A DNA stretch of 64,000 bases from Polyangia bacterium. GTDB taxonomy: Bacteria; Myxococcota_A; Polyangia; Nannocystales; Nannocystaceae. The translations under genes and the position numbers were made by a program. The stretch is taken from the NCBI GenBank assembly GCA_030430565.1, contig JAUIKS010000015.1:1-64000 (forward strand). Direction: 5' to 3'. The notes beneath the pieces were generated by a model, which saw only the letters and a list, made by a program, of their open reading frames with translations, had not been told where the DNA came from and searched no databases. Positions 17,684 through 34,238 of the stretch are shown in pieces (position 1 is the first letter of the stretch; the number at the start of each line of letters is the position of its first letter).

Positions 17684-17875
17684 ATGAACAAGCCCAACAA
17701 CGACGTCCGTATCTCCCTCGACACCGCCCGCGAGCGCGACAACGCTGACAGCGACATCGAGCTCGTCGACATCGACGACCTCCGCGCCGCCTTCGGCGGC
17801 GAGGGCACAGGCCCCGCCCCTGAGCCGCAGGCCGGCATCTACGCCCCCACCCGCATGTGCAGCGGCTGGACCTAA
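17684..17875 (+). CDS. RiPP precursor peptide
   Basis: 63 residues. The leader (1-39) is acidic and ends in a double-glycine site: ELVDIDDLRAAFGG, with Leu33 at -7 and Val28 at -12 relative to the cut after Gly39, the pattern recognised by C39 peptidases; one is encoded at 25369. The predicted 24-residue core is Pro/Gly-rich and ends GIYAPTRMCSGWT, with a single Cys59, dehydratable Thr42, Thr56, Ser60 and Thr63, and a penultimate Trp62. It contains no Asp or Asn. A LanB-type dehydratase, a prenyl-synthase-like protein and a C39 transporter follow on the same strand, which supports the role. The start has only a weak ribosome-binding site (gaaagcg). Being far shorter than its neighbours and the first gene of the block is also typical. 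Confidence 0.82.
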   Translation: MNKPNNDVRISLDTARERDNADSDIELVDIDDLRAAFGGEGTGPAPEPQAGIYAPTRMCSGWT

Positions 17876-17961
17876 GTTCACCTCGCGGGGGGCGGCGCTG
17901 CGGCGTCGCCCCTCGCGCTCCCCTACCTCCCCAACGCTCCCCCCGACCCCTCCAACAGACC

Positions 17962-18987
17962 ATGCAGCTCCCCCGCCCCCAGAACGCGCACGACCTCGAG
18001 TCCCTGGTCACGGGCTGTGACGCGCGCGTGCGCCGAGCGCTCGACGATCCGCGGATCTCGACCGCGCTGCGCCCGACGCTGCTCGCCTACTGGAACACGG
18101 TGCGCGGCTCGGATCAGCAGCGCCAGCGCGAGCACGCGGGGCTCTCGACGATCGCGGCGATCTTCCTGCTCGTGGCCCTCAGCGAGGGCGTCACGAGCTT
18201 CGACGAGACGCTGCTCGAGGCGGCCGCCGGCTGCGAGCTCTACGTGCTCAGCGTCTCGATGTTCGACGCGATCCAAGACGACGAGCTCGAGCCGCCGCTG
18301 TCGCAGCTCGGCGCGGCGCGGGTCAGCAACGCCGCGCTGATCGTCTTCGTGCTCGCCTGTGATCGCATCATGCAGCTCGGCGATCGCGTCGACCCTGACG
18401 CGCGCGCGCGCCTGCGTGAGCTGGTGCTCGATCGTTCGCTGCTCTCTGGGCGCGGACAAGATCGCGACCTCGCGCGCGCGCTCCCTGACAGCGTCGAGGC
18501 GGCCGCGACGCAGGCCCAGGACAAGACGGCCGCGATCCCGATGACGGCCGAGCTCGCCGCGATGGCGGTCGGCTGCGACGCGGATCGGATCGCGCTGTAC
18601 CGCCGCCTCGGTCGCCAGAGCGCGCTGGTGCGGCAGGCCGGCAACGACCTGCGCGACCTGTTCGGAAAGCGCAGCAGCGACGACCTCGAGTCGGGCACCT
18701 GGTCGCTGCCGCTGGTCGCGTTCTGGCGCGGCGCCAGCGCGGCGCAGCGCCGAGAATTCACCGCGCTCCGCGAGGCGCTCCCAGGCAGCGTCGCGGCGCT
18801 TCGCCAGCTGCTGTTCACCTCCGGGGCCGTGTCGACGACCGCGCGGGTGATGGAGCGCGCGCGGCTCGACATCCACGCCACCCTGGGCGCGCTCGAGCGT
18901 GAAGACGCTCCCGTCGCGCTGCTCGGCGCGCTCGCCGACACGGCCACCGCGCGCCTGTACTCGCGCACAAAAGGAACCAAGAGATGA
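17962..18987 (+). CDS. Isoprenyl diphosphate synthase-fold protein (ComQ-like)
   Basis: 341 residues, all-helical, starting at ATG 17962. Polyprenyl-synthase hallmarks appear in order: an Asp-rich first motif FDAIQDDE (Asp102, Asp106, Asp107), GQDRD (165-169), KT at 188-189 and QAGNDLRDL (225-233, second Asp motif), then the SGTWSLPLVAFW turn seen as 'K/R-TLPL' in relatives. The first motif is DxxxDD rather than DDxxD, as in divergent members such as ComQ, which uses a bound isoprenoid to modify Trp of the ComX pheromone. Coming directly after a precursor whose penultimate residue is Trp (with Cys nearby), it may prenylate the peptide; making a free polyprenyl diphosphate is the alternative. 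Its stop overlaps the next start (ATGA). Confidence 0.78.
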   Translation: MQLPRPQNAHDLESLVTGCDARVRRALDDPRISTALRPTLLAYWNTVRGSDQQRQREHAGLSTIAAIFLLVALSEGVTSFDETLLEAAAGCELYVLSVSMFDAIQDDELEPPLSQLGAARVSNAALIVFVLACDRIMQLGDRVDPDARARLRELVLDRSLLSGRGQDRDLARALPDSVEAAATQAQDKTAAIPMTAELAAMAVGCDADRIALYRRLGRQSALVRQAGNDLRDLFGKRSSDDLESGTWSLPLVAFWRGASAAQRREFTALREALPGSVAALRQLLFTSGAVSTTARVMERARLDIHATLGALEREDAPVALLGALADTATARLYSRTKGTKR

Positions 18988-20474
18988 CCCAAGAGACCTC
19001 TCTGTCCTCGACCCCTCTGCGGCTGCGCCTGCGCGAGGATGTCGAGCTCACGCTGATCTACGACGACCGCACGCCCTTCGGCGCCGGCTTCACGGGCCTG
19101 TGCGACGCGCTGCTGCAGCGGACCTGCGCGCCCTTCGAGCGCGAGCTCAAGCGCGTCGGGACCGACCGCGTGGAGGCGCTGGCGAAGGAGTGGATGCCCC
19201 GGATCATGGGCCCGCGCGCGCTCGGTCGCCTGTACACCGGCCCGCGGACGCTGCGCGAGGACTGCCTCTACCCGAAGACGGAGCTGGTGACCCCGGTCGC
19301 GCTCGAGCTCAAGATCCCCGACCGGGCCGGCGGGCGTCGCCGCGTGCTGCTTCGCCTCGACGCGCGCGCGCGCTGCCAGCTCGCGCCGTGGATCGGGCGG
19401 TGGTCACGCGGAGCGGCGCGCCCCCGCGACCCGGCTGCCGCCAGGCTCTGGGACCAGGTCCACGCGGCCGGCGGCTTCGAAGCCGTGGCGCCGCCGAAGC
19501 AGCCGCTGGCGGACGGCGTGACCTTCGTGGGCCACGCGGCGGTCGCGTTTCAGGGCGAGGGCGCGCAGCTGCTGGTCGACCCCTTCTTGCTCCCGCCGTC
19601 GCCCGAGGACCCGCCGGGGATGCGACCGCACACGCCCTGTGACCTCGCCCCGTCTGCGGTGTTCATCACGCACTCGCACCCTGACCACTACGACATCCCG
19701 ACGCTGCTGCGCCTCGGCCACGACACGCCGATCTACGTCCCGGCGGTCCCGCGCGAGACGCTGCTGGCGACGGACATGGTGCTGCGGCTGCGCGAGCTGG
19801 GCTTCTCCAACGTCCGCGCGATGGCGTGGCACGACGAGGCGCGCGTCGGCCCGTTCAAGGTGATCGCGCTGCCGTTTTACGGCGAGCAGCCGACCGACGG
19901 CCGGATCCTGCACCCCGAGGCGCGCAACCTCGGCAACACCTACGTGGTCGAGGGCATGGGGCGCCGCGTCGCCATGCTCGCGGACGCCGGGCGCGACGCG
20001 GCCGGCTGCACGATCGAGCTGGCCGCGTGGGCGCGCGAGCGACATGGCCCTGTGGACATGCTGTTCGGGGGCTACCGCGCCTGGCGACTGCAGCCGATCC
20101 GCTACCTGTTCAGCTCGGTCGCCCGCTACCTCCTGCTCGTGCCGCCCAGCGAGCGCACGCGCTGGCAGAAGATCATGCACGACGCCGACGACCTCGTGGC
20201 GGCGGCCTCGGCCTGGGGCGCGCGCGAGCTGGTGCCCTACGCCAACGGCGGCGCCCCGTGGTTCGCGCGCATCGGCCTCGGGCCGCACGGCACCGACGAG
20301 CGCCCCGATGACCACGACATCGATCCGCCGCTGAGCTGCGTCGAGGAGGCGCTCGCGCGCGCCGGCGCCCACGCGCCGCGCCTGTACCCGATGACGACCG
20401 GCGAGACCTCGCCGCTGACGATGACGATGACGATGACGAGCCGAGGCGACGCGCGCGTCGCCGCGGGGATGTGA
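18984..20474 (+). CDS. Metallo-beta-lactamase-fold hydrolase with extra N-terminal domain
   Basis: 496 residues. Residues 1-about 175 form an uncharacterised mixed domain (LREDVELTLIYDDRTPFGAGFTG...), with no match I recognise. Residues about 175-440 are a UlaG-like metallo-beta-lactamase domain: VTFVGHAAVAFQ, VDPFLLP and the zinc motif HSHPDHYD (His230, His232, Asp234, His235), with further candidate ligands in PFYGEQ and MLADAGRD. The C-terminus ends in a Thr/Met repeat (LTMTMTMTS). Such folds hydrolyse phosphodiesters, thioesters or lactams; within a RiPP cluster the substrate could be a modified or glutamylated peptide. It is translationally coupled to the prenyl-synthase-like gene (4-bp overlap), so the two probably work together. 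Confidence 0.8.
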   Translation: MTQETSLSSTPLRLRLREDVELTLIYDDRTPFGAGFTGLCDALLQRTCAPFERELKRVGTDRVEALAKEWMPRIMGPRALGRLYTGPRTLREDCLYPKTELVTPVALELKIPDRAGGRRRVLLRLDARARCQLAPWIGRWSRGAARPRDPAAARLWDQVHAAGGFEAVAPPKQPLADGVTFVGHAAVAFQGEGAQLLVDPFLLPPSPEDPPGMRPHTPCDLAPSAVFITHSHPDHYDIPTLLRLGHDTPIYVPAVPRETLLATDMVLRLRELGFSNVRAMAWHDEARVGPFKVIALPFYGEQPTDGRILHPEARNLGNTYVVEGMGRRVAMLADAGRDAAGCTIELAAWARERHGPVDMLFGGYRAWRLQPIRYLFSSVARYLLLVPPSERTRWQKIMHDADDLVAAASAWGARELVPYANGGAPWFARIGLGPHGTDERPDDHDIDPPLSCVEEALARAGAHAPRLYPMTTGETSPLTMTMTMTSRGDARVAAGM

Positions 20475-20478
20475 GCCG

Positions 20479-20859
20479 ATGACACAGCAAGACCAACAAC
20501 TGACCGTAGGCGCCCTCGAGGCCGAGTCGGCCGCGCGCCTGCGCGTGCTCCTGGGCGTGCTCGCCGAGGAGGAGCGCGCGCGCCACATGCTCCCCGTGCT
20601 CCGCGACGAGCTCGACGAGCGGACGCGCTGGTACCGGGCGCGCATGGGGCTGGTGCGACGCCACGAGTTCTCGGCCTTCCTCGACTTCGCCGGGCTCACG
20701 CCCAGCGACTTCCGGGCGCAGATGCACACGCTGTGCGCCGTCGCCAAGGTCGGGGGCCTGCGCCGCGCCGAGGTCTCGGCTCGCATGCCGCGCTACCGCG
20801 GCGTGTTCTCGGCGCGCGACTGGCTGCTGCGACGCGAGCTGCGACGGGAGGGCCTGTAA
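20479..20859 (+). CDS. Small helical protein, paralogue A
   Basis: 126 residues, all helical, no signal peptide. The core LRVLLGVLAEEERARHMLPVLRD, then TRWYRARMGLVRRHEFSAFLDFAGLTPSDFRAQM and MPRYRGVFSARDW, is shared almost position for position with the protein at 21728. The WYRxRxGL...FxxFLxxAGLxxxxFxxxM pattern resembles the SurA/PpiC N-terminal helical domain used by peptide-maturation proteins, though this is a motif-level impression only. It may bind the leader or hold the peptide for the modifying enzymes. It starts 4 nt after the previous stop. Confidence 0.72.
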   Translation: MTQQDQQLTVGALEAESAARLRVLLGVLAEEERARHMLPVLRDELDERTRWYRARMGLVRRHEFSAFLDFAGLTPSDFRAQMHTLCAVAKVGGLRRAEVSARMPRYRGVFSARDWLLRRELRREGL

Positions 20860-20861
20860 CG

Positions 20862-21686
20862 ATGGACACGTATCAAAAGCTCGCCCAGTTTCAGCAGCTC
20901 ATGACGCGCGCGCGCGCGCGCCACCCCGCGGGCGCGCTCGCGCGGATCGAGCACGGCTTCGCGGTCATCACCGGCCGCGCGCCGGCGGACTCCGTGCCCA
21001 GGCACCCGCATCAGCGCAGCGGCTTTGTGCTGCGGGATCTCGAGGCGCGGGCCTGGCATGACGCAGGCGCGCTCGAGCAGGTCCGCGCGCTCGAGCGCGG
21101 CTGGGAGGCGATCCGCGACGAGGCGCTGCGCGTGCGCGCGGAGCAGTCCGGCTTCCGCGTCAATAACCAAGACAACGCGCCCCACCGCGGCGCCTGGAAC
21201 ATCTCGCGCATCAAGTCGGTCGGCGGCATCAGCCCGGCCGAGCGCGCGCGCTGGCCGGTGACCTCCGCGGTGCTCGACTCGCTGCCGCGCCTCGGCAAGA
21301 TGGCGATGGTCTCGGCGCTCAACCCGGGGTGCCACATCACGCCACACTGTGGGCCGTGGAACGCGAACCTCACGATCCACCTCCCGCTGGTCGTGCCGCC
21401 CGGCGACTGCGCGCTGCGAGTCGGCGACGAGGCCCGTCGATGGGAGGAGGGCCGCTGCCTGGTGTTCGACGACAGCTTTGAGCACGAGGCCTGGAACCGC
21501 GGCGGCTACACGCGGATGATCCTGCTCGTCGACATCTGGCACCCCAGCCTGAGCGAGGTCGAGATCGAGCTGCTGCAGGCCTTCTCGGACCTGATGGTGA
21601 CGCAGGGCGGCTTCGACGAGGAGGCCGCGCGCCGCGAGGACGCCCGCGTCCGCGGGCGGTGGTGGGTCGAGCGAAAGATCGCGTGA
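20862..21686 (+). CDS. Aspartyl/asparaginyl beta-hydroxylase-like 2-oxoglutarate dioxygenase
   Basis: 274 residues from ATG 20862, 2 nt after the previous stop. The C-terminal two-thirds is an Asp/Asn beta-hydroxylase (AspH) domain: LNPGCHITPHCGPWNANLTIHLPL with iron-ligand candidate His162, the RWEEGRCLVFDDSFEHEAWN block with His208, and Arg218 in YTRMILLVDIWHP for 2-oxoglutarate. From memory, the His-His and His-Arg spacings (46 and 10) equal those of human AspH. The family hydroxylates Asp, Asn or Pro side chains. The predicted core of this cluster has no Asp or Asn but has four Pro (44, 46, 48, 55), so Pro hydroxylation, leader modification or another target is implied. Confidence 0.87.
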   Translation: MDTYQKLAQFQQLMTRARARHPAGALARIEHGFAVITGRAPADSVPRHPHQRSGFVLRDLEARAWHDAGALEQVRALERGWEAIRDEALRVRAEQSGFRVNNQDNAPHRGAWNISRIKSVGGISPAERARWPVTSAVLDSLPRLGKMAMVSALNPGCHITPHCGPWNANLTIHLPLVVPPGDCALRVGDEARRWEEGRCLVFDDSFEHEAWNRGGYTRMILLVDIWHPSLSEVEIELLQAFSDLMVTQGGFDEEAARREDARVRGRWWVERKIA

Positions 21687-21727
21687 TCGAAACCGGCGCG
21701 CCGTGGTCTCTCACCACGGAGCCCGAC

Positions 21728-22117
21728 ATGTACCTCATCGACATCGACGACCACGACGCGCTCCCCGGGGGCCAGACGCGCGCGAGCCTGCGCGCGCGCG
21801 TCCTCCTGGGGGTTCTTGTAGATGCCGAGGCGGCCCGGCTGCAGCTCGAGCCGACCCGCGCCCAGCTCGCAGAGACCACGCGCTGGTTTCGGGCGCAGTT
21901 CGACATGCGTCAGCGCGCCGACGTCGAGGACTTCCTCGCGTTCGCGGGCCTCGATCTGCGCGAGCTCAGCGCCCAGATGCGCACCTTCAGCAACATCAGC
22001 GAGGTCGGGGCCGCGCGCGACGGCGATGTCGCCCGGCTCCTGCCGCGCTACCGCGGGATCCAGCGGGTCGGCGACTGGCACGACCAGCGCCTCGTCGGCG
22101 GGGAGGGCCCGCGATGA
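21728..22117 (+). CDS. Small helical protein, paralogue B
   Basis: 129 residues from ATG 21728 with GGAG 8 nt upstream; a GTG at 21683 overlapping the previous stop (GTGA) is an alternative start. It shares LLGVLxxxExAR, TTRWFRAQFDMRQRADVEDFLAFAGLDLRELSAQM and LLPRYRGIQRVGDW with the protein at 20479, and differs in having an acidic N-terminus (MYLIDIDDHDAL) that resembles the ELVDIDDL part of the precursor leader. The two genes flank the dioxygenase, so they arose by duplication within the cluster and may form a heterodimer. Its stop overlaps the dehydratase start (ATGA). Confidence 0.72.
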   Translation: MYLIDIDDHDALPGGQTRASLRARVLLGVLVDAEAARLQLEPTRAQLAETTRWFRAQFDMRQRADVEDFLAFAGLDLRELSAQMRTFSNISEVGAARDGDVARLLPRYRGIQRVGDWHDQRLVGGEGPR

Positions 22118-24591
22118 CCGCCGCGATCTCGATTGTGTCTCATAAGACAGCTAAGACACACGAGCCCGAGGCGGACGCGGTCGAGCTCGCGCCGGCCGCG
22201 GTGGTCCGCGTCGCCGGCTGGTCGCTCGACGCGGTCCGCGAGCTCGACGACCCGCAGCTCGGCGCGCTCGCCCGCGAGACTACGCCGGGCGGGTCGGGGT
22301 GGCGGGAGTACGTCGCGCGCTACGACGACGCGATCGAGCGCGGGCGCCGGACCCTGTGGGGACGCACCGTCGAGAGCCGACGGTTCATGCGCGCGCTCGC
22401 GGTCGTCAACCCGGCGCTCGCCCGCGGCTTCCTCGGGCGCGTCCTCTCCGAGCGCCGCAACAAGAAAGCGCGTCATCGCGAGACGACGCTGTACCGCTAC
22501 CTCGCGCGCGCGGCCTCGCGGACCGAGCCCTGCGCGCTGTGGACCGGCGTCGCGCTGGCGAGCTGGGGGCCGCGTCGCCGCGTGCGTCGAGCGGCCCCGA
22601 AGTTCTCGGTCGCCCCGGACCTCGCGCCGTTTCGCGCGATCGTCATGGCGCTGGCGGAGCGCGCCCCCTACCCCGCCCGCGGGCGCTACAAGCTCAACCC
22701 CACGCTCACGCGGGGAGCGGACGGCGCGTACAGCTTCTGGACCCCGCCGACGCGCGGCCCGTCGATCAAGCGCCACCTGTCCGTTCGCGCCGGTCTCGAC
22801 GCCTTGCTCAACACGCTCGCCCGCGCCCCCTCGTGGACCGAGGCCGAGGCTGTCCGTGCGCTGGGTACCCGCGGGCTCCCGGCGGCCGCGGTGACGCGGC
22901 TGTTTCACACGCTGCGCGAGCAGGGCGTGCTGGTCGGCGGGCTCGTGTTCCCGCGCCAGTTCACCGACCCGTGGGCTGCCTTGCTCGCGGCGGAGTCCCT
23001 GCTCGATCCATCCCACGTGGCGCCGTGGCGAGCGGCGCGGACGCGGCTCTGCGCGCTCGCCGACTCGCTGCGCGCCCAGCTCGCTAGCTGCGAGGCGAGC
23101 GTGGTCATCGCGATCATGGACCAGGCCCGCGAGGCGCTGCAGTCGCTGTGCGACGCCCTCGAGACGCCGCTGCCCTCGCTCCCGCGCGCGCCGCTTCGCT
23201 GCGACGCGGCCGCGCCCTGGCGGGTCGAGCTCGGCCCCGAGGACGCCGCGCGCCTCGGTCGCGCCTGCGCGGCCGCCAGCCGTCACGAGCACGCCGTCGG
23301 GGTGCGGGCGCCGCTCGTGCGCGCGGCGACGCGGCGGATCCTCGGCGAGGATCAAGATGTCTCTTTGGACACCGTGAAGCCGCTCGCCCGCGCCGCCGCC
23401 GACCCCAGCGGCCTGCTGCAATGGGACACCCTCGTCGATCACCTGGGCGGCGCCCCGGAGCTGCGAGCCCGCGGCGACGCGACGCGACGTATGCTCGCGG
23501 CCGGCGAAGAGCGGCGCTGGAGCGCCTCGACCCCCCCGCGCCCCGCCGGGCCCGCGCTGCAGACCCTCCAGCTCTCCTTCACCCCGCCCGCGCTCGGCGG
23601 CGACGCGCTCGTGCACGGCGTCGGCGTCGACGCGACCTCGGCCTACGCCCGCGTCGCGACGCTGCTCGCCGGCGAGGGCGCGCCGCTCGAGGGCTGGCTC
23701 AAACGCCAGTACCACGCGCTCTCGCGGGCGCTCGGCGTCGACTTCGTGGCGCTCGCCTACGATCACCCGGTCCCCAACGTGCTCGCGCAGCCGCAGCTGT
23801 GGGACGAGACCCTCGATCTCTGGGGCGTGAACGACTCGACGCTGCCCTCGCGCGGCCTCCGGCTCACCCGCGATCCGCACACGGACCTCCCGCTCGCGCG
23901 GCTGCCCGGGCGCGCGCGACCGATCTGCCCGATCGCGCCGACGGCCGCCTCGTTCCCCGCCGGAGATCCCTGCCTGCAGGCGCTGCTGCTGACCTCGCTG
24001 CACGTTCCGCCGGTGGTGCCGGCCGGCGCGCGCGTGGTCCACACGCGCGCGGCCGAGACTGAGGCGCCGCAGCACCAGCCGCGCCTGCGCCTCGAGGATG
24101 ACAGCGTCGTCCGGACGCGGCGTGTCGAGCTGCGCGGCCCGGCGCTCGCGAGCCTGACCGAGACCCGCGGCGCCCACCGCTTCGCGCGCTGGTCTCAGCT
24201 CGCCCACGAGCTCGGGTGGAGCAAGCTGCTGCTGCTCGAGCGCGACGGCTACCCGCCGCTGCTGGTCGACCGCGACAGCCCGCTCGCGATCGAGGCCGCC
24301 TTCGAAGGCGCCGGCAAGACCAAGAGCCTGCGGGTCGAGGAGTTTATCCGCGACGCCTGGATAGGAGACGAAGATGATGATGATGATGACGACACCGACC
24401 ACGACCGCGACCTCAACCCCGCTTGCGACCCCGATCTCGACGCTCGAGGCGCTGCCCGGCGTCACGTCGCCGAGCTCGTCCTGCCCTTCATGCGGCGCGC
24501 CGGCGATCCTCGCGACCTCCGCGAGCGACCTGCGCTGGCTGCAGGTCAACGTCGCCCTGCGCGCCCGGGGCGGATCGCTCCTGCCGGCTGA
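22114..24591 (+). CDS. LanB-type dehydratase, glutamylation (N-terminal) domain protein
   Basis: 825 residues. The family signature YRYLARAASRTEPCALWTGVALASWG (about 128-152) and FMRALAVVNPALARG match the N-terminal domain of class I lanthipeptide dehydratases, which use glutamyl-tRNA to glutamylate Ser/Thr side chains. The region KLNPTLTRGADGAYSFW and LLLLERDGYPPLLVDRDSPLAIEAAF (about 700-750) are typical of its later part. The usual fused elimination domain is absent here and is encoded by the next gene, as in thiopeptide-type split systems. The last about 70 codons (after EDDDDDDDTD) overlap the next gene and look like out-of-frame read-through. Coupled to the upstream gene by ATGA. Confidence 0.85.
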   Translation: MTAAISIVSHKTAKTHEPEADAVELAPAAVVRVAGWSLDAVRELDDPQLGALARETTPGGSGWREYVARYDDAIERGRRTLWGRTVESRRFMRALAVVNPALARGFLGRVLSERRNKKARHRETTLYRYLARAASRTEPCALWTGVALASWGPRRRVRRAAPKFSVAPDLAPFRAIVMALAERAPYPARGRYKLNPTLTRGADGAYSFWTPPTRGPSIKRHLSVRAGLDALLNTLARAPSWTEAEAVRALGTRGLPAAAVTRLFHTLREQGVLVGGLVFPRQFTDPWAALLAAESLLDPSHVAPWRAARTRLCALADSLRAQLASCEASVVIAIMDQAREALQSLCDALETPLPSLPRAPLRCDAAAPWRVELGPEDAARLGRACAAASRHEHAVGVRAPLVRAATRRILGEDQDVSLDTVKPLARAAADPSGLLQWDTLVDHLGGAPELRARGDATRRMLAAGEERRWSASTPPRPAGPALQTLQLSFTPPALGGDALVHGVGVDATSAYARVATLLAGEGAPLEGWLKRQYHALSRALGVDFVALAYDHPVPNVLAQPQLWDETLDLWGVNDSTLPSRGLRLTRDPHTDLPLARLPGRARPICPIAPTAASFPAGDPCLQALLLTSLHVPPVVPAGARVVHTRAAETEAPQHQPRLRLEDDSVVRTRRVELRGPALASLTETRGAHRFARWSQLAHELGWSKLLLLERDGYPPLLVDRDSPLAIEAAFEGAGKTKSLRVEEFIRDAWIGDEDDDDDDDTDHDRDLNPACDPDLDARGAARRHVAELVLPFMRRAGDPRDLRERPALAAGQRRPARPGRIAPAG

Positions 24592-27585: not shown

Positions 27586-29354
27586 CCATGATCGCCGCGT
27601 TCGACCTGCTCTCCAACTTCTCCTCCAACTTCTCCGCCGCGCTCGTCGACCTGTTCGCCGCGCCCCGACCCGCGCTCCCGCTCGCGCTCGGCCGCCTCGC
27701 GCTCGGCCTCGTGCTCACCGTCGACGGCGTCAAGATGCTGCGCGAGCACGGGCTGTGGTACGCGGACGACGGCCTGCGCCGACGCCTCGGGGACGAGGAG
27801 CGCCTGCCCCCCGCGCTCGACCTGTTCGCCTGGGCCGAGCAGCTCGGGCTGTCCTCGCGCGCGGTCCTGTGGACCATGGTGATCAGCGCGCTCGCGTTCG
27901 CGCTCGGCCTCGCCACGCCGATCTCCGGCGTGCTGCTGCTGCTGGCGCTCTTGGCGATCCCGCCCCGCAACCTGCTCGTCGTCTACGGCGGCGACGCCTT
28001 CGCCCGCACCACGCTGCTGCTGCTGCTGCTCTCGCCCTGCGCCGCCTCGCTCTCCGTCGACGCGCTGCTGCGCGAGGGCTCGCTCGCGCTCACGAGCCAG
28101 CGCGCGCCCTGGGCCGGTCGCCTGATCGTCTTCGAGGTCGCGCTGCTCTACCTCTACAACTTCCTGTGCAAGCTCCCAAACAGCGCCTGGCGCCGCGGCC
28201 TCGTGATGTTCGACCTCCTGCGCAACCGCGACTTCGCGCGCGCCGACGTGCCCACCTGGCTCAAGACCGCCTGGGCCTCGCGCGCGCTGACCTGGGGCGC
28301 GCTCGCGGCCGAGCTGGCGTTCGCGCCAGGTTTACTGATCCCGCAGACCGCCGCGCTGTGCTGCCTCGCGGCCGTCGCCTTTCACCTCACGATCGCGCGC
28401 CTGCTCGACGTGCACCTCTTCAGCCAGGTCATGGCCGCGACCCTGCTCGCGTGCCTGCCCGGCGCGTGGCTGCTCGACGCGCTGGGCCTCGCGCCCGCGC
28501 TGGTGGCCGCGCCGTCGCCGACCCGCCTCGACGCGCTCACCCAGGGCGCCGGCGTCGCGCTGTGTCTCGCCTACGCGGTCTACGCCGTGTTCTGGGCGCC
28601 GCCGTGGCGAAGCCGCGTGTCGCGTGCGCTTCGTCGACCGCTCGCGCCCTTCCTCGATCGACTCCACTGGGTCCGCGGCTGGCGGCTGTTCACCAACTCC
28701 TGCCCGCAGCAGCTCGACATCGAGCTCGTCATGCTCGACGCGCGCGGCGAGCTCACGCGCTGGCAGTGGAACCGCGCCGACGCGCTCGTGCGCCCCTCGC
28801 CCGAGCTCGCGGCGCGGCCCACCGTCCCCGGGCACCGGTTCCAGCGCTTCAAGTTCGCGCTCGTCGACCGCGAGGACGCCCGCGAGCGACTCATCGCCCG
28901 CTTCCGGCGCGAGCTCGAGGGCGCCGGCCTGCGCCCGCGCGCGGTCTCGATCGACGCGCTGTTCGTCGATGTCCGCGGCGCGCGGCCGATCGTCGGGGGC
29001 CGGAGCCTTCACACCCAGCTCGCCGCGCGCGGGCGCGGCGAGGGCGTGGACTTCGACGCCCTCGCCCAGCTCGCGTGCGCGGTCCGCTGCCCGCCGACCC
29101 GCGTCAAGCTGCTCGAGCTGCTGCTGCTCACGGGGCTGCGCGCGGCTCGCGAAGACCGAGCCCGCGACGGCCTCGGGCCCGCGCTCGAGCTCGTGCTCCG
29201 CGACCGGGCGGCCCGCGTGCGCCCGCCGGCGCTCCCGGCCCGCTCGCTCGCGGGGCTGCGGCGGATGTGCGCCCAGGTCCCCGATCCCGACGAGCGCGCG
29301 CGGCTCAGCCAGGCGCTCACGGCCATCGAGCGCGCGACCTCCGGCGAGCGCTGA
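27582..29354 (+). CDS. HTTM-domain (vitamin K-dependent gamma-carboxylase-like) membrane protein
   Basis: 590 residues from GTG 27582 (GTGA overlap; ATG 27588 is an alternative). The N-terminal two-thirds is a horizontally transferred transmembrane (HTTM) domain with about seven helices; RLALGLVLTVDGVKM and YLYNFLCKLPNSAWRRG are typical. The latter aligns by eye with the human gamma-glutamyl carboxylase stretch holding its active-site Lys218, placing Lys197 at that position. The C-terminal 200 residues are soluble and include RLFTNSCPQQLDIELV and a region rich in Arg. The known member carboxylates Glu to Gla using reduced vitamin K; the core peptide here has Glu40 and Glu47. Carboxylation of the RiPP is an inference. 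Confidence 0.75.
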   Translation: MTMIAAFDLLSNFSSNFSAALVDLFAAPRPALPLALGRLALGLVLTVDGVKMLREHGLWYADDGLRRRLGDEERLPPALDLFAWAEQLGLSSRAVLWTMVISALAFALGLATPISGVLLLLALLAIPPRNLLVVYGGDAFARTTLLLLLLSPCAASLSVDALLREGSLALTSQRAPWAGRLIVFEVALLYLYNFLCKLPNSAWRRGLVMFDLLRNRDFARADVPTWLKTAWASRALTWGALAAELAFAPGLLIPQTAALCCLAAVAFHLTIARLLDVHLFSQVMAATLLACLPGAWLLDALGLAPALVAAPSPTRLDALTQGAGVALCLAYAVYAVFWAPPWRSRVSRALRRPLAPFLDRLHWVRGWRLFTNSCPQQLDIELVMLDARGELTRWQWNRADALVRPSPELAARPTVPGHRFQRFKFALVDREDARERLIARFRRELEGAGLRPRAVSIDALFVDVRGARPIVGGRSLHTQLAARGRGEGVDFDALAQLACAVRCPPTRVKLLELLLLTGLRAAREDRARDGLGPALELVLRDRAARVRPPALPARSLAGLRRMCAQVPDPDERARLSQALTAIERATSGER

Positions 29355-29430
29355 GTTTGCGTGATCGATCGTCGCCCGCCGCGGTCTACCCACGCGACTC
29401 ACCGCCCCGCAACGATCGGAACAAAGCGAC

Positions 29431-30513
29431 ATGTCCTACGCGACCGACCGCGCCCGCGCGCCCCTCCCCCGACCTACCGACACGATCACGCCGCGACGCG
29501 GCGCCCCCGTCATCGACGCCGCGCTCGCGCGCGCGGCGAGCTACCTCGAGACCGCGCTCGAGCGCGCCGGCGGCCGCCTGTGGCGCGACTACACCGACGC
29601 GCAGGGCCGCAAGGGCTCGAACGTGTGGGCGGCCGCCTTCATCGCCGCGCACGTCGGCGAGGTCCCGGAGACGCGCGCGCTCGCGGCCCGGGTCACGCGC
29701 GCGCTGCTCGAGCAGCGGAGGCCGAGCGGCGGCTGGGGCTACGACGAAGCGCTGCTCGAGGACTGCGACTCGACCGCGTGGGTCCTGCTCGCGGCTCGCA
29801 GCGCGCGCGTCCGCGTCGATCGCAAGCAGCTGATCCACGGCCTGCGCTTCATCCTCGATCACCAGCGCCCCGGCGGCGGCTTCGTCACCTACGGCCCCGT
29901 GGGCGTCGAGCTGTTCGGAGACATCGCGCAGCGCGACGGCTGGTTCACCCCCCAGACCTGCGTGAGCGCGGCGGCCCTCGCCGCCCTCGCGACCTACGCG
30001 CCGCGCGGCCTCCCGGCGAGCGAGCAGGCCGTCGCCTACCTGCTCAGCGCGCGCGGCGAAGATCGACTCTGGCGCCCCTACTGGTGGCACGGCTTCACCT
30101 ACGCGACCTATCACGCCGTCCGCGCCCTGCGGCTCGCCGGCCAGCTCGAGCGCGACCCCGCGCTCGCCTGCGCGATCGTTCAGGCGACCTCGCAACGACG
30201 CTGCAGCGACGGCGGCTGGTCGGGCGCGACCGCTGGGCGCGTCAACGGCTTCGCCACCGCGCTCGCCGTTTTAACGCTCTGCGAGGTGATCGAATCCTCG
30301 CCCGACGGGTCTATCGAGACCGCGACCCCGATCCTCCACGAGGCGCTCGCCACCCTGCTCTCGCTGGAGCGCCCGGGCGGCGGATTTGCAGCCAGCGCCG
30401 AGCTCCTGGTCCCCGGCGGGAGCAGCGGCGGCACGATGACGATGCTCGACCGCGGACCCTTCACGACCGCCTGCATCGTCCACGCGCTCGACCGCCTCCG
30501 CGCGCACCTGTGA
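29431..30513 (+). CDS. Terpene-cyclase/prenyltransferase-type alpha-alpha toroid protein
   Basis: 360 residues. It contains repeated helix pairs with QW-like motifs: RRPSGGWGYDEALLED, QRPGGGFVTYG, RRCSDGGWSG and ERPGGGFAAS. Asp111-Cys-Asp113-Ser-Thr-Ala-Trp resembles the DxDDTA acid motif of class II terpene cyclases and squalene-hopene cyclase; the middle Asp, which protonates the substrate in that family, is kept while the last Asp is Ser. The protein is about half the length of a full hopene cyclase, so a single toroid domain. In this cluster it could cyclise a peptide-attached isoprenoid, or stand in for a LanC cyclase, which has the same fold but needs zinc ligands not seen here. Confidence 0.72.
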   Translation: MSYATDRARAPLPRPTDTITPRRGAPVIDAALARAASYLETALERAGGRLWRDYTDAQGRKGSNVWAAAFIAAHVGEVPETRALAARVTRALLEQRRPSGGWGYDEALLEDCDSTAWVLLAARSARVRVDRKQLIHGLRFILDHQRPGGGFVTYGPVGVELFGDIAQRDGWFTPQTCVSAAALAALATYAPRGLPASEQAVAYLLSARGEDRLWRPYWWHGFTYATYHAVRALRLAGQLERDPALACAIVQATSQRRCSDGGWSGATAGRVNGFATALAVLTLCEVIESSPDGSIETATPILHEALATLLSLERPGGGFAASAELLVPGGSSGGTMTMLDRGPFTTACIVHALDRLRAHL

Positions 30514-30535
30514 GCCGAACAAGAGGGACACCACG

Positions 30536-31417
30536 ATGACGAGCGAGCCCGCCACGACCACCACGCCCCGCGAAGCCGCCCCGAGACCTCGCGCGCTCCG
30601 CCTCCGGAGCCGCCTCGAGGACTTCGTCCCCTTCGACACCATCCCCTGGGAGCAGCAGGCCGAGCAGCTCCTGCGCTGCCGCGACGGCGACGGCTACATG
30701 GGCCTGCGGCCGCCCGCCCGGGTCGAGCGAGAGGTCGCGGCGCTGCTCGAGCGCCTCGAGCTCACGCCGGGCGACGCGATCCTCGACCTCGGCTGCGGAC
30801 CGGGCATGTACAGCCAGCGCATGGCCGCGCGCGGCTACGCCGTGACCGGCATCGACATCGCCGCGCCCGTCATCGAGCACGCGCGGGCCGAGGCCGCCGC
30901 CGCCGGCCTGTCGTGCCGCTACCTCGCCGCCTCCTTCCTCAGCATGGACTTCACCGCAGAGTTCGACGGCGCCTTCCTCACCAACTCGACCATCAACCAT
31001 CTCTCCGGCGACCGTCTCGATGAGCTGCTGCGCCGGGTCCGGCGCGCGCTCAAGCCCGGCGCGCGCTTCGCCTGCGAGCTCATCATCGAGCCCCAGGGCT
31101 TTCACGCGCAGCGACCGACCGAGACCCGCCAGCTCTTCGAGCTCCCGCGCTCGCCGTGGAGCGACCGCCCGCACCGCTGGCTCGAGCGCAAGCTCAGCTT
31201 CCCCGCCGCCGGCGAGCGCGTCGTCCACCACATCATCGTGCCCGAGCGGGGCGCCCCGCGGGAGTACTGGTCGCGCTTCGCCATGCTCGCGCCCGAGGCC
31301 TTCACCGCCCGCCTCGCCCGCGCCGGCTTCGCGCTCGAGCGATGGCTCGAGCAGGACCTGCGCGCGCCCGTCAACCCCGACAGCGAGCTGGTGTGGGCGC
31401 TGGCCCGCGCGGAGTGA
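30536..31417 (+). CDS. Class I SAM-dependent methyltransferase
   Basis: 293 residues. The Rossmann core is clear: motif I ILDLGCGPGMYSQRMA (about 84-98), acidic residue at the end of strand 2 (GYAVTGIDIAAPVI), LSMDFTAEFDGAFLTNSTINHL (motif IV region) and LKPGARFACELII. The N-terminal 60 residues and the C-terminal PREYWSRFAMLAPEAFTARLARAG segment are typical of small-molecule or peptide O/N-methyltransferases. It is 22 nt downstream of the toroid gene and just before the exporter gene, so it probably methylates the peptide. Which residue is unknown. Confidence 0.85.
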   Translation: MTSEPATTTTPREAAPRPRALRLRSRLEDFVPFDTIPWEQQAEQLLRCRDGDGYMGLRPPARVEREVAALLERLELTPGDAILDLGCGPGMYSQRMAARGYAVTGIDIAAPVIEHARAEAAAAGLSCRYLAASFLSMDFTAEFDGAFLTNSTINHLSGDRLDELLRRVRRALKPGARFACELIIEPQGFHAQRPTETRQLFELPRSPWSDRPHRWLERKLSFPAAGERVVHHIIVPERGAPREYWSRFAMLAPEAFTARLARAGFALERWLEQDLRAPVNPDSELVWALARAE

Positions 31418-31422
31418 TCGAC

Positions 31423-33258
31423 ATGACCGATCAAGCAGATCCTTCCCAAGAGGACATCACCGAAGATCAGCGCGGGCTCCGCCCCGTCGCGCGCCTGCTC
31501 GCGCTCACCCGCCCCCACGCCCCGCGCCTCGCGCTCGCGGCCGCCTTCCTGCTCGGCGGCGGCGCGCTCAGCCTGCTCTACCCGCGCCTGCTCGGCTCGA
31601 TCATCGACGCCTCCTTCACCGACCACGACCTCAGCGCGCTCGCCGGCCTCACGCTGACGCTGCTCGCGATCTTCGTCGCCCAGGCGGTCATCGTGTTCTT
31701 CCGCCAGTACCTGCTCGGCTGGGTCGGCGAGCGCGTCGTCGCCGACCTCCGCGTCGAGCTCGCCACGCGCCTGCTCCACCAGTCGCAGGCCTACTATCAC
31801 CGCGCGCGCACCGGCGAGCTGCTCGCGCGCGTGACCGCAGACGTGACCCGCGTGCAGGAGACCGTCACGACGGCGCTGCCCGAGGGCGCCGTCAACCTCC
31901 TGACCATCGCCGGCGGCCTCGCGGTCCTGCTCTACACCAACCCGCTGCTCACCGCGGTCATGCTCGCGGTCGTGCCGCCGACCGTCATCGCCACCGTGCT
32001 CGTCGGCCGCCGGATCCGCGCGCTCAGCCAGCGCGCCCAGGACCAGCTCGCGCTCGCCAGCGGCGAGCTCCAAGAGGCGATCGCCGGCGTCGAGATGGTT
32101 CAGTCATTCTGTCGCGAAGAGCATGTCGCCAACGGCTACCGCGAGGGGGTCGAGCGCGGCTTCGAGCTCTCGATCCGCAGCCTCCTCGCCGGCAGCGCGT
32201 TCTCCTCCTGCGCGACCCTGGCCGCCTGCGTCACGATGACCGGCGTGTTCTGGCTCGGCGGCGCCATGGTCGCGCGCGGCGAGCTCTCCGCCGGCGCGCT
32301 CACCGAGTTCATGCTCTACACCATCATCATCGGCGCCGCGGTGGCCCCCTCCGCCGCGCTCTGGGGTCAGCTGCAGGGGGCCGCCGGCGCGACGGCGCGG
32401 CTGTTCGGGATCCTCGAGGCGCGCCCCGAGATCACCACGCCTGCGACCCCGGCGGCGCTCCCCGCCGCCCGCGGCGAGCTGACCTTCGAGGACCTCAGCT
32501 TCGGCTACCGCGGCCGCGACCAGCTCGTCCTCCGAGACATCAACCTGCGCATCAAGCCAGGCACCACCTGCGCGCTCGTCGGCGGCAGCGGCTCCGGCAA
32601 GAGCACGCTCTCGCGCCTCGCGCGGCGCCTCCACGACCCCCATCTCGGCCGCGTGCTGCTCGACGGACACGACCTCCGGCGGCTCGCGCTCCACGACCTG
32701 CGCGCCCCCATGGCCGTGGTCTCGCAGGAGCCCACGCTGCTCTCCGGCACGATCGCCGACAACATCCGCTTCGGCCGCCTCGACGCCAGCGACGCCGAGC
32801 TCGAGGCCGCCGCCCGCCAAGCCAACGCCCACGACTTCATCCTCGACTTCCCCGACGGCTACCAGACCCGCGTCGGCGAGCGCGGCGCTCAGCTCAGCGG
32901 CGGCCAGCGCCAGCGCGTCGCCATCGCCCGCGCCATCCTCCGAGACCCGCGCGTGCTCATCCTCGACGAGGCCACCAGCGCCCTCGACGCCCACAGCGAG
33001 GGCCTCGTCCAGGACGCGCTCGACCGCCTCAAGCGCGGCCGCACGACCCTCATCATCGCCCACCGCCTCAGCACGATCGTCAGCGCCGATCACATCGCCG
33101 TGCTCGAGCGCGGGCGCGTCGTCGAGGAGGGTCGTCACGAGCAGCTGCTCGCGCGAGGAGGCGCCTACGCGCAGCTGGTCGCCCGCCAGACAGAAGGCGC
33201 CGCGCCCCCAGCCGCGCTCGCCAACGTCTCCTCGCACGCGCTCAAGCGCTCGGCGTAG
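31423..33258 (+). CDS. ABC exporter (MsbA/LmrA-type half transporter)
   Basis: 611 residues starting 5 nt after the methyltransferase stop. Six transmembrane helices (about 30-310) precede a complete nucleotide-binding domain: Walker A GGSGSGKST, Q-loop VVSQEPTLLSGTI, signature QLSGGQRQRVAIARAI, Walker B VLILDEATSALD and H-loop AHRLSTI. There is no peptidase domain. All ATPase motifs that are broken in the C39 protein of the same cluster are intact here, so this is the likely energy source for export of the mature peptide, or a self-immunity pump. Confidence 0.93.
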   Translation: MTDQADPSQEDITEDQRGLRPVARLLALTRPHAPRLALAAAFLLGGGALSLLYPRLLGSIIDASFTDHDLSALAGLTLTLLAIFVAQAVIVFFRQYLLGWVGERVVADLRVELATRLLHQSQAYYHRARTGELLARVTADVTRVQETVTTALPEGAVNLLTIAGGLAVLLYTNPLLTAVMLAVVPPTVIATVLVGRRIRALSQRAQDQLALASGELQEAIAGVEMVQSFCREEHVANGYREGVERGFELSIRSLLAGSAFSSCATLAACVTMTGVFWLGGAMVARGELSAGALTEFMLYTIIIGAAVAPSAALWGQLQGAAGATARLFGILEARPEITTPATPAALPAARGELTFEDLSFGYRGRDQLVLRDINLRIKPGTTCALVGGSGSGKSTLSRLARRLHDPHLGRVLLDGHDLRRLALHDLRAPMAVVSQEPTLLSGTIADNIRFGRLDASDAELEAAARQANAHDFILDFPDGYQTRVGERGAQLSGGQRQRVAIARAILRDPRVLILDEATSALDAHSEGLVQDALDRLKRGRTTLIIAHRLSTIVSADHIAVLERGRVVEEGRHEQLLARGGAYAQLVARQTEGAAPPAALANVSSHALKRSA

Positions 33259-33367
33259 CGCGCCGCCCGACGCGTCGGCGCGACCCCCCGCCGCCGGCGC
33301 CGCTGGATCGGGCTCGACGCGCTGGGCGCAGGATCGCGTCACGGAGTATGGTCGTCACGGCCTCACC

Positions 33368-34033
33368 GTGACGACCCCCCGCTCGATCTCTTTTTGTGGC
33401 TGCTCGTGGTTGATGATCTACCACCTCGGCGTGCTCGAGGCGCTGCGCTGCTCGTTCGACACCGCCGGCTGGCGCTTCGCCGGCGCTTCGTCGGGATCGC
33501 TGACCGCCGCGTTGGCGGCGACCGGAGTGCCGACCGCCAGGGCCCGCGACTGGATGTTTCATCTGGCTGATGAGTCACGTCGGTTTCGAATCGGCCCAGC
33601 CGGGCGCATGACGGCCTTCGTCCGCCGCGGCCTTGATGACGTGCTGCCCGCCGACGCCCACGCGCGCGCGTCGGGGCGTCTCCGGATCTCCATCACCCAG
33701 ATCCGCGGGTGGCGCAACTGGATCGTCGACGACTACCGCAGCCGCGCGGACCTGATGAGCGCCGTGCTCGCGTCGTGCTACATCCCGATCTACTACGAGC
33801 GCCCGGCGCGGTTCCGCGGGCGCTGGTGCATCGACGGCGGGCTGACGGACAACAGCCCGCGGTTCTCGGACGCGACCGTCACCGTCGCGCCACGACCTGG
33901 CCCTTTCGACATCACGCCCACCGAGACCGCGCCGAGGATCGAGAGCTACCTCCCCGGCTCGACCGCGCGCCTGTCCGAGCTGTACGCGAACGGGCGACGC
34001 GACGGCGAGCGCTGGGCGGCCGCTCAGGGTTGA
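33368..34033 (+). CDS. Patatin/PNPLA-like acyl hydrolase
   Basis: 221 residues from GTG 33368. The order SISFCGCSWLMIYHLGVLEALR, FAGASSGSL (GxSxG nucleophile, Ser41) and CIDGGLTDN (Asp156 of the Ser-Asp dyad) is that of patatin-like phospholipases. The SFxGCxxLxIYHLG start, SAVLASCYIPIYY and the FSDATVTVAPRPGPFDITP block look more like the animal PNPLA (ATGL/adiponutrin) branch than the usual bacterial patatins. It lacks transmembrane segments and is shorter than most. It lies at the right end of the RiPP block, 109 bp after the exporter, so it may be a tailoring (acyl/ester-cleaving) gene or a passenger. Confidence 0.82.
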   Translation: MTTPRSISFCGCSWLMIYHLGVLEALRCSFDTAGWRFAGASSGSLTAALAATGVPTARARDWMFHLADESRRFRIGPAGRMTAFVRRGLDDVLPADAHARASGRLRISITQIRGWRNWIVDDYRSRADLMSAVLASCYIPIYYERPARFRGRWCIDGGLTDNSPRFSDATVTVAPRPGPFDITPTETAPRIESYLPGSTARLSELYANGRRDGERWAAAQG

Positions 34034-34225
34034 TAACCGCGAGAGCGCGCAGGGACGCCGCGCCGTGTTCCAACAATGCGCAAAGAGCCGAGCGCCCCCG
34101 CGCGTGTCGCCGCGTCCGCCCGCGTTGTGAGACGACGCGCCAGGTCACCGAGAACCCCGCGTGAAGCGACGAATTCAGCCCGCTGCGGAGATTCGAGGGT
34201 GTCTCGGCGATCCGCCGCGTCATGT

Positions 34226-34238
34226 TCGGCGCCATCAT
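34226..34238. repeat. 13-bp direct repeat, right copy
   Basis: tcggcgccatcat, identical to 17420-17432; encodes part of VMMAP at the end of the N-terminal FG-GAP piece. Confidence 0.85.

Follow-up and report, generated by a model that had tools for sequence, protein, structure and literature searches.

The window (the whole stretch of 64,000 nucleotides analysed here) carries a precursor ORF followed by 13 further plus-strand ORFs, up to position 34033, with GC3 values of 0.88-0.96. The features are given below in gene order; L048 denotes the most similar of the related clusters in other genomes.

17684..17875, plus strand: precursor peptide of 63 aa with an ATG start; the leader ends in ...ELVDIDDLRAAFGG and the core is EGTGPAPEPQAGIYAPTRMCSGWT
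17962..18987, plus strand: putative ComQ-like (trans-IDS-like) Trp prenyltransferase (PF00348, 3.8e-6; signature residues; fold)
18984..20474, plus strand: putative CmlA/FrsH-like metallo-beta-lactamase (MBL)-fold diiron monooxygenase (profile match to CmlA, 2e-17; ligands)
20479..20859, plus strand: sm1, small helical protein, predicted to be a peptide-binding or scaffold subunit (sm fusions elsewhere)
20862..21686, plus strand: AspH-family Fe/2OG hydroxylase, accessory (Asp_Arg_Hydrox, PF05118, 2.4e-45; among the six clusters, in the window only)
21728..22117, plus strand: sm2, paralogue of sm1 (40% identity)
22114..24591, plus strand: LanB-N, glutamylation module (Lant_dehydr_N, PF04738, 1.8e-14; R132/R136 equivalent to NisB R83/R87)
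24374..25372, plus strand: LanB-C (SpaB_C), elimination-type module (TIGR03891, 3e-21; true start perhaps further downstream)
25369..27585, plus strand: C39 peptidase-ABC exporter, predicted to serve leader cleavage and export (Peptidase_C39, 9.9e-25)
27582..29354, plus strand: HTTM membrane protein, accessory (PF05090, 1.5e-12; also present in L048)
29431..30513, plus strand: MstE-type monodomain class II terpene cyclase (toroid), motif DCDSTA (8pak, 6e-21; MstE, 1e-19)
30536..31417, plus strand: SAM methyltransferase, accessory (Methyltransf_25, 2.8e-20)
31423..33258, plus strand: second ABC exporter, predicted to serve export or self-protection (ABC_membrane, 3.4e-50; 61% identical gene in L048)
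33368..34033, plus strand: patatin-like lipase, membership doubtful (Patatin, PF01734, 4.3e-20; no match in L048)

Eight of the 13 junctions overlap or are at most 5 bases long, the remaining ones spanning 22 to 109 bases. The 109-base gap precedes the patatin ORF, which has no counterpart within 1.6 kb downstream of the ABC gene in L048, and its membership is doubtful for both reasons. We regard the operon as real, with 12 of the 13 ORFs probably belonging to it; the twelve genes counted after the precursor in the initial annotation are correct if the patatin ORF is set aside, and one short of the plus-strand ORFs present. The reading of the locus as a RiPP cluster was supported.

The leader ends in ...AAFGG, and the 24-aa core, which has an unmodified mass of 2476.115 Da, carries Thr56, Met58, Cys59 and Trp62, within a T-x-M-C-x-x-W arrangement common to nine precursors of the related clusters L049-L052. 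The core is preceded by Gly-Gly and the operon encodes a C39 exporter, in agreement with the removal of a GG leader by C39 that had been proposed earlier; exceptions to GG are one L051 precursor (AG) and that of L052 (GA).

The same bacterial family (Nannocystis relatives) yielded five related intact clusters, and the ComQ-like protein, the MBL-fold protein, a small helical protein, the split LanB and the C39 exporter are present in all six. Since the order comQ-MBL-sm-lanBN-lanBC-C39 is kept in five other genomes, the gene set is more than a chance assembly. A further copy, L055, was classed as decayed and kept outside the counts of intact clusters, having no LanB or sm gene in the stretch examined, HxHxAH and a remnant core ...MCPSR. 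What the sequences show directly is which genes are present, the families they belong to, the conserved catalytic motifs and the recurrence of the set.

The MBL-fold protein (Lactamase_B_2, 2.4e-13), absent from the initial annotation, resembles the diiron monooxygenases CmlA and FrsH as far as its sequence goes. The alignment to CmlA spans HxHxDH and the Glu, and H230, H232, D234, H235, E301 and D334 are invariant in the six clusters; we take the CmlA ligands to be HxHxDH, Glu and Asp, with His432 as the seventh. The protein could also be a hydrolase or lyase rather than an oxygenase, given that the MBL fold is mostly hydrolytic, that the Pfam match is to the general Lactamase_B_2 model, and that no alignment reliably reached the position of the seventh ligand (CmlA His432). 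We consider this unlikely, because the matches to CmlA (2e-17) and FrsH (2.8e-17) are far better than that to NAPE-PLD (1.2e-6), and because 30 of 31 aligned relatives, all but a mis-cut fragment, keep the Glu that aligns with the diagnostic one of CmlA. As for the hydroxylation previously proposed, AspH, found in one of the six clusters, does not fit the part of main hydroxylase, whereas the conserved putative oxygenase is the CmlA-like protein.

The assignment of LanB-type enzymes was confirmed by the matches to Lant_dehydr_N (1.8e-14, covering the N-terminal part of the model only) and TIGR03891 (3e-21). Equivalents of NisB R83/R87 are present in all 13 aligned LanB-N proteins, and those of R784/R786 in all 14 aligned LanB-C proteins; the R826 equivalent occurs in seven of the 14 and is missing in the window and four of its five close relatives. 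In NisB, R83 and R87 serve glutamylation, and R784, R786, R826 and H961 elimination. The elimination His (NisB H961, at a site covered by no alignment) also seems to be missing from LanB-C, and both points make elimination by the window protein uncertain. That LanB-N acts as an aminoacyl-tRNA peptide ligase (PEARL) seemed less likely, given the SpaB_C protein alongside. The proteins sm1 and sm2 reached no family cut-off. In L058 and L067 sm forms one protein with LanB-C, and in L057 one with the CmlA-like protein. Foldseek (best E 0.62, none below 0.001) and a Pfam SurA_N_3 match at 0.071 on the fused sm copy in L053 give no more than a hint of a SurA-like chaperone domain.

No protein of the window matched LANC_like, and in none of the 10 genomes tested did the cluster contain a LanC, which makes thioether rings doubtful. 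Nine of these genomes have LanC-like genes elsewhere (the nearest about 14 kb off, in G308), and one MAG, G306, shows no LanC at all. The cluster might nevertheless make a class I lanthipeptide, in which Thr56 would be dehydrated, a LanC encoded elsewhere would close a methyllanthionine to Cys59 (i, i+3) and the terpene would be secondary. Such a product would suit the LanB pair, the outlying LanC-like genes and the fact that no residues are more constant than a Thr (or Ser) and a Cys three positions away from it; it sits badly with the clusters lacking LanC, with G306 and with the lost R826 equivalent, and we hold it to be improbable.

Beyond the bacterial family, Nostoc, actinomycetes and a gammaproteobacterium also have the CmlA-like and LanB set, next to [ST]-x-M-C precursors in which the motif is usually followed by P/C and Trp. 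These distant loci were found via the CmlA-like gene, so its presence in them is by construction. L115, L116, L117 and L118 repeat L058, L059, L060 and L057 and were otherwise counted once; the CmlA-like relatives L061-L064 and L068-L087, which are more distant and for the most part lack LanB matches, were set aside. Of 10,247 stop-terminated frames from 48 loci (900,128 bases, overlapping loci included), 19 have T-x-M-C within their last 10 residues, and all 19, a raw count including the repeat L116, are precursor sites. A motif-first pattern gave three matches in 394 genomes of the actinomycete class, one being the known Actinocorallia precursor; the other two, whose surroundings showed neither a CmlA-like nor a LanB gene, were taken as chance.

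In Actinocorallia (L058), a single run holds a precursor with ...TSIMCPW, the LanB pair, the CmlA-like gene, a toroid (6e-20) and a Trp_DMAT-type prenyltransferase (PF11991, 2.4e-6, above cut-off) that is unrelated to the ComQ-like enzyme. A DMAT-like frame is present in L067, and Trp halogenases lie beside the set in three Nostocales genomes. Overall, a Trp-directed enzyme accompanies nine of the 12 clusters with a Trp soon after the motif, versus none of the three without such a Trp; L056, L057 and L059 have the Trp and no Trp-directed enzyme within the stretch examined. We give about even chances to a pan-phylum RiPP class in which a CmlA-type diiron oxygenase would cooperate with a LanB pair and a small SurA-N-like adaptor to install an undescribed modification on [ST]-x-M-C, the following Trp being a swappable slot for prenyl plus cyclase (with two unrelated prenyltransferase folds) or halogen.

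The ComQ-like protein falls slightly below the PF00348 cut-off (26.7 bits, cut-off 27). FARM D102 and D106 (Asp1 and Asp5), the pseudo-SARM N228-D229 (of the NDxxx/GDxxx type) and Q225, the Gln upstream of the SARM, are invariant in all six intact clusters. The decayed copy L055 has Glu-Asp at the SARM, and three prenyl synthases aligned for comparison have Asp-Asp where the ComQ-like protein has Asn-Asp. Trp prenylation by ComQ requires NDxxx or GDxxx together with FARM Asp1 and Asp5 (PMC5331326, in excerpt), and the Gln is a Trp-recognition residue (PMC13290415, in excerpt). Because the ComQ signature is kept in six of six intact clusters, the enzyme looks like a Trp prenyltransferase and not a GGPP synthase, its ComQ type being judged from published signature residues; the Asn is ComQ's signature and not that of every peptide Trp prenyltransferase, since PalQ retains Asp in its SARM (PMC10853753).

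An ordinary polyprenyl diphosphate synthase supplying GPP, FPP or GGPP, with the toroid or HTTM protein transferring the chain or with the toroid making a free terpene unattached to the peptide, would agree with the fold and the best solved matches, which are GGPP and polyprenyl synthases in a comparison set holding no ComQ structure. It is quite improbable, though, considering that the Asn-Asp kept in all intact clusters is tied to Trp prenylation (PMC5331326, in excerpt), that four of the six clusters have the ComQ-like gene without toroid or HTTM, and that precursors adjoin this gene in all five intact clusters for which upstream DNA was available. A ComQ-like query run over 282 genomes of the phylum matched in nine: the gene itself and eight weak matches (4e-7 to 5e-4), taken as other prenyl synthases with no further cluster gene within their 1.5 kb flanks.

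The terpene cyclase candidate (SQHop_cyclase_C, 6.7e-10) is a single toroid of about 360 aa, and the top eight of its 19 solved-structure matches are 8pak, five MstE chains, 8paj and 6ij1. The acid motif is of the DxDxT type (DCDSTA in the window, DADSTA in L048, DSDSTA in L058; DADTTG for MstE in the alignment). The suggestion in the initial annotation that the toroid cyclises the prenyl chain is supported by these MstE-type relatives and by the published action of a prenyltransferase and such a cyclase on peptide Trp (PMC13290415, in excerpt). The same annotation had envisaged a prenyl-synthase/toroid pair beside the precursor, and this held for the ComQ-like gene (five of five, the opposite of its never lying there) and only in part for the toroid, which is present in two of the six intact clusters and missing from four. 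When the toroid was used as a query, 21 of 29 genomes of the order matched, only that of L048 strongly (5.6e-103); the others, at 2e-12 or worse, were taken as squalene-cyclase-type genes. A pattern-based genome-wide scan with the toroid gave 39 matches and no confirmed relative. The toroid was also considered as an FTase, and rejected because its solved relatives are MstE-type terpene cyclases.

In yeast a-factor, a prenylated Cys goes together with a methyltransferase and an ABC exporter. A CaaX-like prenylation of Cys59, named earlier alongside Trp62, would fit the methyltransferase and second ABC exporter of the window and the Nannocystis cores that end exactly in CPSW (Cys at -4 in L049-L051), but it is highly improbable, since the window and L052 have their Cys at -5, clusters where no prenyltransferase was seen (L056, L057, L059, L060, L065, L066) carry [ST]xMC as well, the toroid is not FTase-like, and the characterised trans-IDS-like peptide enzymes act on Trp (PMC13290415, in excerpt). 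The terpene site is likely Trp62, as the ComQ signature in the six intact clusters suggests. That Trp62 is penultimate in the window core (W-T) was counted against our main proposal, Trp position preference differing among known enzymes.

On balance, we think it fairly probable that the cluster makes a secreted terpene-bearing RiPP by a LanB/CmlA-like/ComQ-like/toroid route, whose reactions, sites and order we infer as follows. The sm proteins would hold LanB-N, LanB-C and the CmlA-like oxygenase together, and the LanB pair and the oxygenase would modify the T56-R-M-C59 segment: Thr56 would most likely be glutamylated and then eliminated to dehydrobutyrine, and the diiron enzyme would hydroxylate or otherwise oxidise a residue of T-x-M-C. 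The ComQ-like enzyme would attach a prenyl chain to Trp62, probably at indole C3 with formation of a pyrroloindoline; the MstE-type toroid would protonate and cyclise this chain. AspH, the methyltransferase (best NCBIfam match daptide methyltransferase, under cut-off) and perhaps HTTM may add lineage-specific changes; the carboxylation once ascribed to HTTM found nothing in its favour beyond the broad Pfam fold match. The C39-ABC protein would cut the leader after Gly39 and export the product, the second ABC transporter exporting it too or protecting the cell.

Among known systems, CmlA (chloramphenicol) and the FrsH-type beta-hydroxylases share the MBL fold, HxHxDH and the Glu and Asp ligands with the CmlA-like protein. 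Both act on carrier-protein-bound amino acids, whereas the operon partner in the window is a ribosomal peptide, and the clusters provide a test set for this type of diiron oxygenase, known from non-ribosomal pathways, acting on ribosomal peptides. The LanB glutamylation module, in which NisB R83/R87 have their equivalents, and the separate SpaB_C protein are shared with class I lanthipeptides and thiopeptides; the window cluster differs in having no LanC and in a LanB-C without the R826 equivalent.

Hubrich 2024 reportedly described the ChrPC and NctPC RiPPs with polycyclic isoprenoids. As presented in excerpted parts of the review PMC13290415, there, too, a prenyltransferase of the trans-IDS-like or ABBA kind acts on peptide Trp together with a cyclase, which is MstE-like in NctPC; the two are fused, whereas the window has separate genes in a split-LanB, CmlA-like, [ST]xMC setting. 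Cyclised Trp prenylation of ribosomal peptides is thus already known, and the earlier statement that no described RiPP class has this gene set fails for the cyclised-isoprenoid Trp, published in 2024, and holds for the family itself: we found neither the split-LanB and CmlA-like combination nor an [ST]xMC core motif described in the literature searched, although the clusters mined by Hubrich 2024 might overlap with this family. With its [ST]xMC signature, the family is easily searched for.

A lanthipeptide precursor modified by MppC also carries a geranylated Trp, leader-dependently, the enzyme there being of the ABBA type and the synthetase of class II (PMC12715784, in excerpt). ComQ-ComX and PalQ-PalX resemble the window in having a trans-IDS-like enzyme with the FARM kept, next to a precursor that has a leader and a conserved Trp at the C-terminus or close to it. 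They differ in that the PalX cluster is described as consisting of no more than the precursor, the prenyltransferase and a histidine kinase (PMC10853753), and comQXPA, in the excerpted text of PMC4008528, has no LanB, CmlA-like enzyme or terpene cyclase; moreover, PalQ keeps the SARM Asp and needs a terminal Trp and ComQ an internal one, whereas the window Trp is penultimate. Around a similar core, the clusters offer a comparison set for Trp terpenylation, with a prenyltransferase only (L049-L052), a cyclase in addition (window, L048, L058) or a halogenase (Nostocales), and the design of lipidated peptides would benefit from a leader-guided way of making terpene-bearing ones.

The operon lies on the plus strand of the window (G+C content 71%) and consists of a precursor ORF and 13 downstream ORFs reaching position 34033; 8 of the 13 junctions are overlapping or at most 5 bases long. 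The precursor leader ends in AAFGG, leaving a 24-aa core, EGTGPAPEPQAGIYAPTRMCSGWT. Family scans of the window proteins bore out the gene families assigned in the initial annotation and also revealed a metallo-beta-lactamase-fold (MBL-fold) gene that had gone unnamed there, while the small helical ORFs sm1 and sm2 reached no family cut-off in the same scans.

Features of the window
13273-14643 (-), radical SAM/SPASM protein (PF04055, 2.7e-26), a few kb upstream of the operon on the opposite strand, possibly a separate peptide-modifying gene
17684-17875 (+), 63-aa precursor
18984-20474 (+), MBL-fold, CmlA-like protein
20479-20859 and 21728-22117 (+), sm proteins with leader-like N-termini
33912-34949 (-), Thr-rich ORF, with Cys, overlapping the patatin gene at its 3' end, on the opposite strand

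A search with sm1 matched 6 of 29 genomes of the order, the window's own among them. The order comQ-MBL-sm-lanBN-lanBC-C39 recurred in five stretches from other genomes, L048 to L052 (L049, L050 and L051 belong to one genus). L048 begins at comQ, so its precursor would fall off the contig end; its HTTM, toroid, methyltransferase and second ABC exporter genes follow the window's order, without AspH. The co-occurrence proposed in the initial annotation held for the ComQ-like and split LanB genes in 6/6 intact clusters, as for the whole core set, with precursors in L049-L052, and for toroid and HTTM in 2/6. AspH was found in 1/6, and neither HTTM, toroid nor AspH had a match in the L049-L052 stretches examined. 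A seventh genome, Nannocystis poenicansa (L055, 8214-11377), was left out of these counts: it keeps comQ and CmlA-like genes, but neither LanB nor sm gave a match within the part examined, and its precursor remnant ends in MCPSR, without Trp. With a metal motif reading HxHxAH and a Glu in place of the ComQ pseudo-SARM Asn, it is a decayed copy.

A profile of the six MBL-fold sequences matched CmlA (2e-17) and the diiron monooxygenase 8a90 (2.8e-17) much better than NAPE-PLD (1.2e-6). All six intact clusters keep HxHxDH, E301 and D334 unchanged, and the E301-equivalent Glu is present in 30 of 31 aligned relatives, the exception being a mis-cut fragment (L059). By sequence, the protein is most likely an O2-using oxygenase; we found no CmlA-like enzyme linked to RiPPs in the open-licence literature, relevance being judged from titles.

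In LanB-N, the equivalents of NisB R83 and R87 were conserved (13/13 aligned), as were those of R784 and R786 in LanB-C (14/14). Because the R826 equivalent, present in 7/14 LanB-C sequences, is missing from the window's, and because the cluster has no LanC, dehydration of Thr56 is plausible though not certain, and formation of a thioether in the product is doubtful. A LanC-like gene lay inside the cluster in 0/10 genomes tested and elsewhere in the genome in 9/10; the MAG G306 had none anywhere. In the Actinocorallia genome, a second LanB-C match adjoins a LanC match (G308:C3:235038-237082) about 14 kb from the cluster, probably another lanthipeptide-type cluster.

Gene fusions join sm to LanB-C (L058, L067), to the CmlA-like protein (L057) and to another metallo-beta-lactamase-type protein (L053), an argument for a single complex in which LanB-C, sm and the oxygenase act together. 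The sm model (pLDDT 91.5) consists of helices only; its best structural matches, SurA and PrsA domains, were not significant (E ≥0.62). The sm N-termini (YLIDIDDHDALPGG in the window's sm2, NFHDDDNFVPGG in L049) resemble the leader stretch LVDIDDLRAAFGG, a likeness that may reflect leader mimicry or chance.

Stretches L049, L050, L051 and L052 hold 2, 2, 4 and 1 precursors. Most of their leaders resemble ELTLVDLDDLRAAFGG, and the cores end in KTVMCPSW, KTIMCPSW, RTLMCPSW or STVMCPQWY. With the window's precursor this makes ten, all identical at the four fixed positions of T-x-M-C-x-x-W. Farther afield, leaders differ and [ST]xMC-type cores are kept.

Precursor motifs beyond the Nannocystis relatives; the first seven entries have CmlA-like, LanB-N and LanB-C genes together
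L053 and L112 (two stretches of the same contig), Nostoc: KETVMCCW (L112)
L056, gammaproteobacterial MAG: GSTVMCPW
L057, Streptomyces paradoxus: GTAMCWHGG...
L058, Actinocorallia: GTSIMCPW
L059, Actinomadura: ISTIMCPWFC
L060, Acidimicrobiales MAG: GTIMCPG...
L067, actinomycete MAG: GGTIMCPW
L113, Nostoc FACHB-152, CmlA-like gene and LanB-C on separate contigs (L054, L113): KSTIMCCW
L065 and L066, two myxobacterial MAGs with a CmlA-like gene: STIMCAF, STVMCAF

Across 48 loci, T-x-M-C fell within the last ten residues of 19 of 10,247 stop-terminated frames, all 19 at precursor sites (one locus is counted twice, and the decayed remnant is included); this strict test did not capture L057, L058 and L060. 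Because the loci had been picked by their MBL, sm or LanB-C genes, finding these genes together with the motif is by construction as far as the genes go; the motif itself played no part in the choice. Scanning 394 genomes by motif first returned the known Actinocorallia precursor and two further matches, neither with a cluster gene nearby.

An MBL alignment scan of 84,980 species genomes gave at least 35 confirmed loci, and among the matches listed 13 clusters, including the six from Nannocystaceae, combine CmlA-like, LanB-N and LanB-C genes. The family is rare: at 1e-30 the MBL profile matched 3/297 genomes of the Actinocorallia family and 11/291 of the Nostoc order, strongly in only 2 of the 11. 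Another Nostocales genome (L114) has CmlA-like, LanB-N and sm genes. In Paraliomyxa miuraensis (L078, 8273-14071), a CmlA-like frame immediately precedes a single frame that matches LanB-N (2.8e-9) as well as LanB-C (6e-4) and may be an undivided LanB.

Where Trp soon follows the motif, 9 of 12 clusters carry a Trp-directed enzyme in the stretches examined (window, L049-L052, L053/L112, L113, L058 and L067; none in L056, L057 and L059); where it does not (L060, L065, L066), 0/3 do. L058 presents a single run of precursor, LanB-C, LanB-N, B12-radical SAM, CmlA-like, toroid and Trp_DMAT-type prenyltransferase genes, the last exceeding its cut-off (PF11991, 2.4e-6); L067 has a DMAT-like frame (2e-41), and the Nostocales stretches L053, L112, L113 and L114 have Trp halogenases, with YcaO and TfuA also in L112 and L113. 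Both of these Nostoc loci apparently hold two halogenase genes (L112, 941-3604; L113, 9734-13857; one per locus by Pfam, the second by eye), one with a 380-aa N-terminal extension. Numbers being small and clusters related, the pairing supports, without proving, Trp as a tailoring slot.

For ComQ it is reported that Asp 1 and 5 of the FARM are essential, the pseudo-SARM has to be NDxxx or GDxxx, and changing its Asn to Asp drastically reduces activity (PMC5331326); the Gln immediately before the SARM is described as a Trp-recognition residue of trans-IDS-like Trp prenyltransferases (PMC13290415). In the ComQ-like enzyme (PRENYLTRANSFERASE), D102, D106, Q225, N228 and D229 are invariant across the six intact clusters, and three aligned prenyl synthases have Asp-Asp in place of its Asn-Asp. 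PalQ, however, is reported to retain the SARM Asp residues, counter to a general Asn rule (PMC10853753). The AlphaFold model (pLDDT 88.1) has an isoprenyl diphosphate synthase fold, which would fit a Trp prenyltransferase or a prenyl synthase alike. The likely acceptor is Trp62.

We did not find the family defined by split LanB, CmlA-type oxygenase, sm and [ST]xMC core in the open-licence literature, which leaves out most subscription papers, and the modification of the [ST]xMC segment has a fair chance of being new chemistry. Trp prenylation and cyclisation would be the tailoring of one lineage within this family, and have precedents: prenylated Trp (ComX, PalX), Trp with cyclised isoprenoids (ChrPC, NctPC) and, as reported in PMC12715784, prenylated lanthipeptides. 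The toroid retains DxDST; among solved structures it comes closest to monodomain class II terpene cyclases (8pak, 6e-21; MstE, 1e-19). As described in PMC13290415, ChrPC joins a trans-IDS-like prenyltransferase domain to a cyclase domain and NctPC an ABBA-type domain to an MstE-like one, both acting on a peptide Trp; there the two are domains of one protein, whereas in the window the same two kinds of enzyme are encoded by separate genes.
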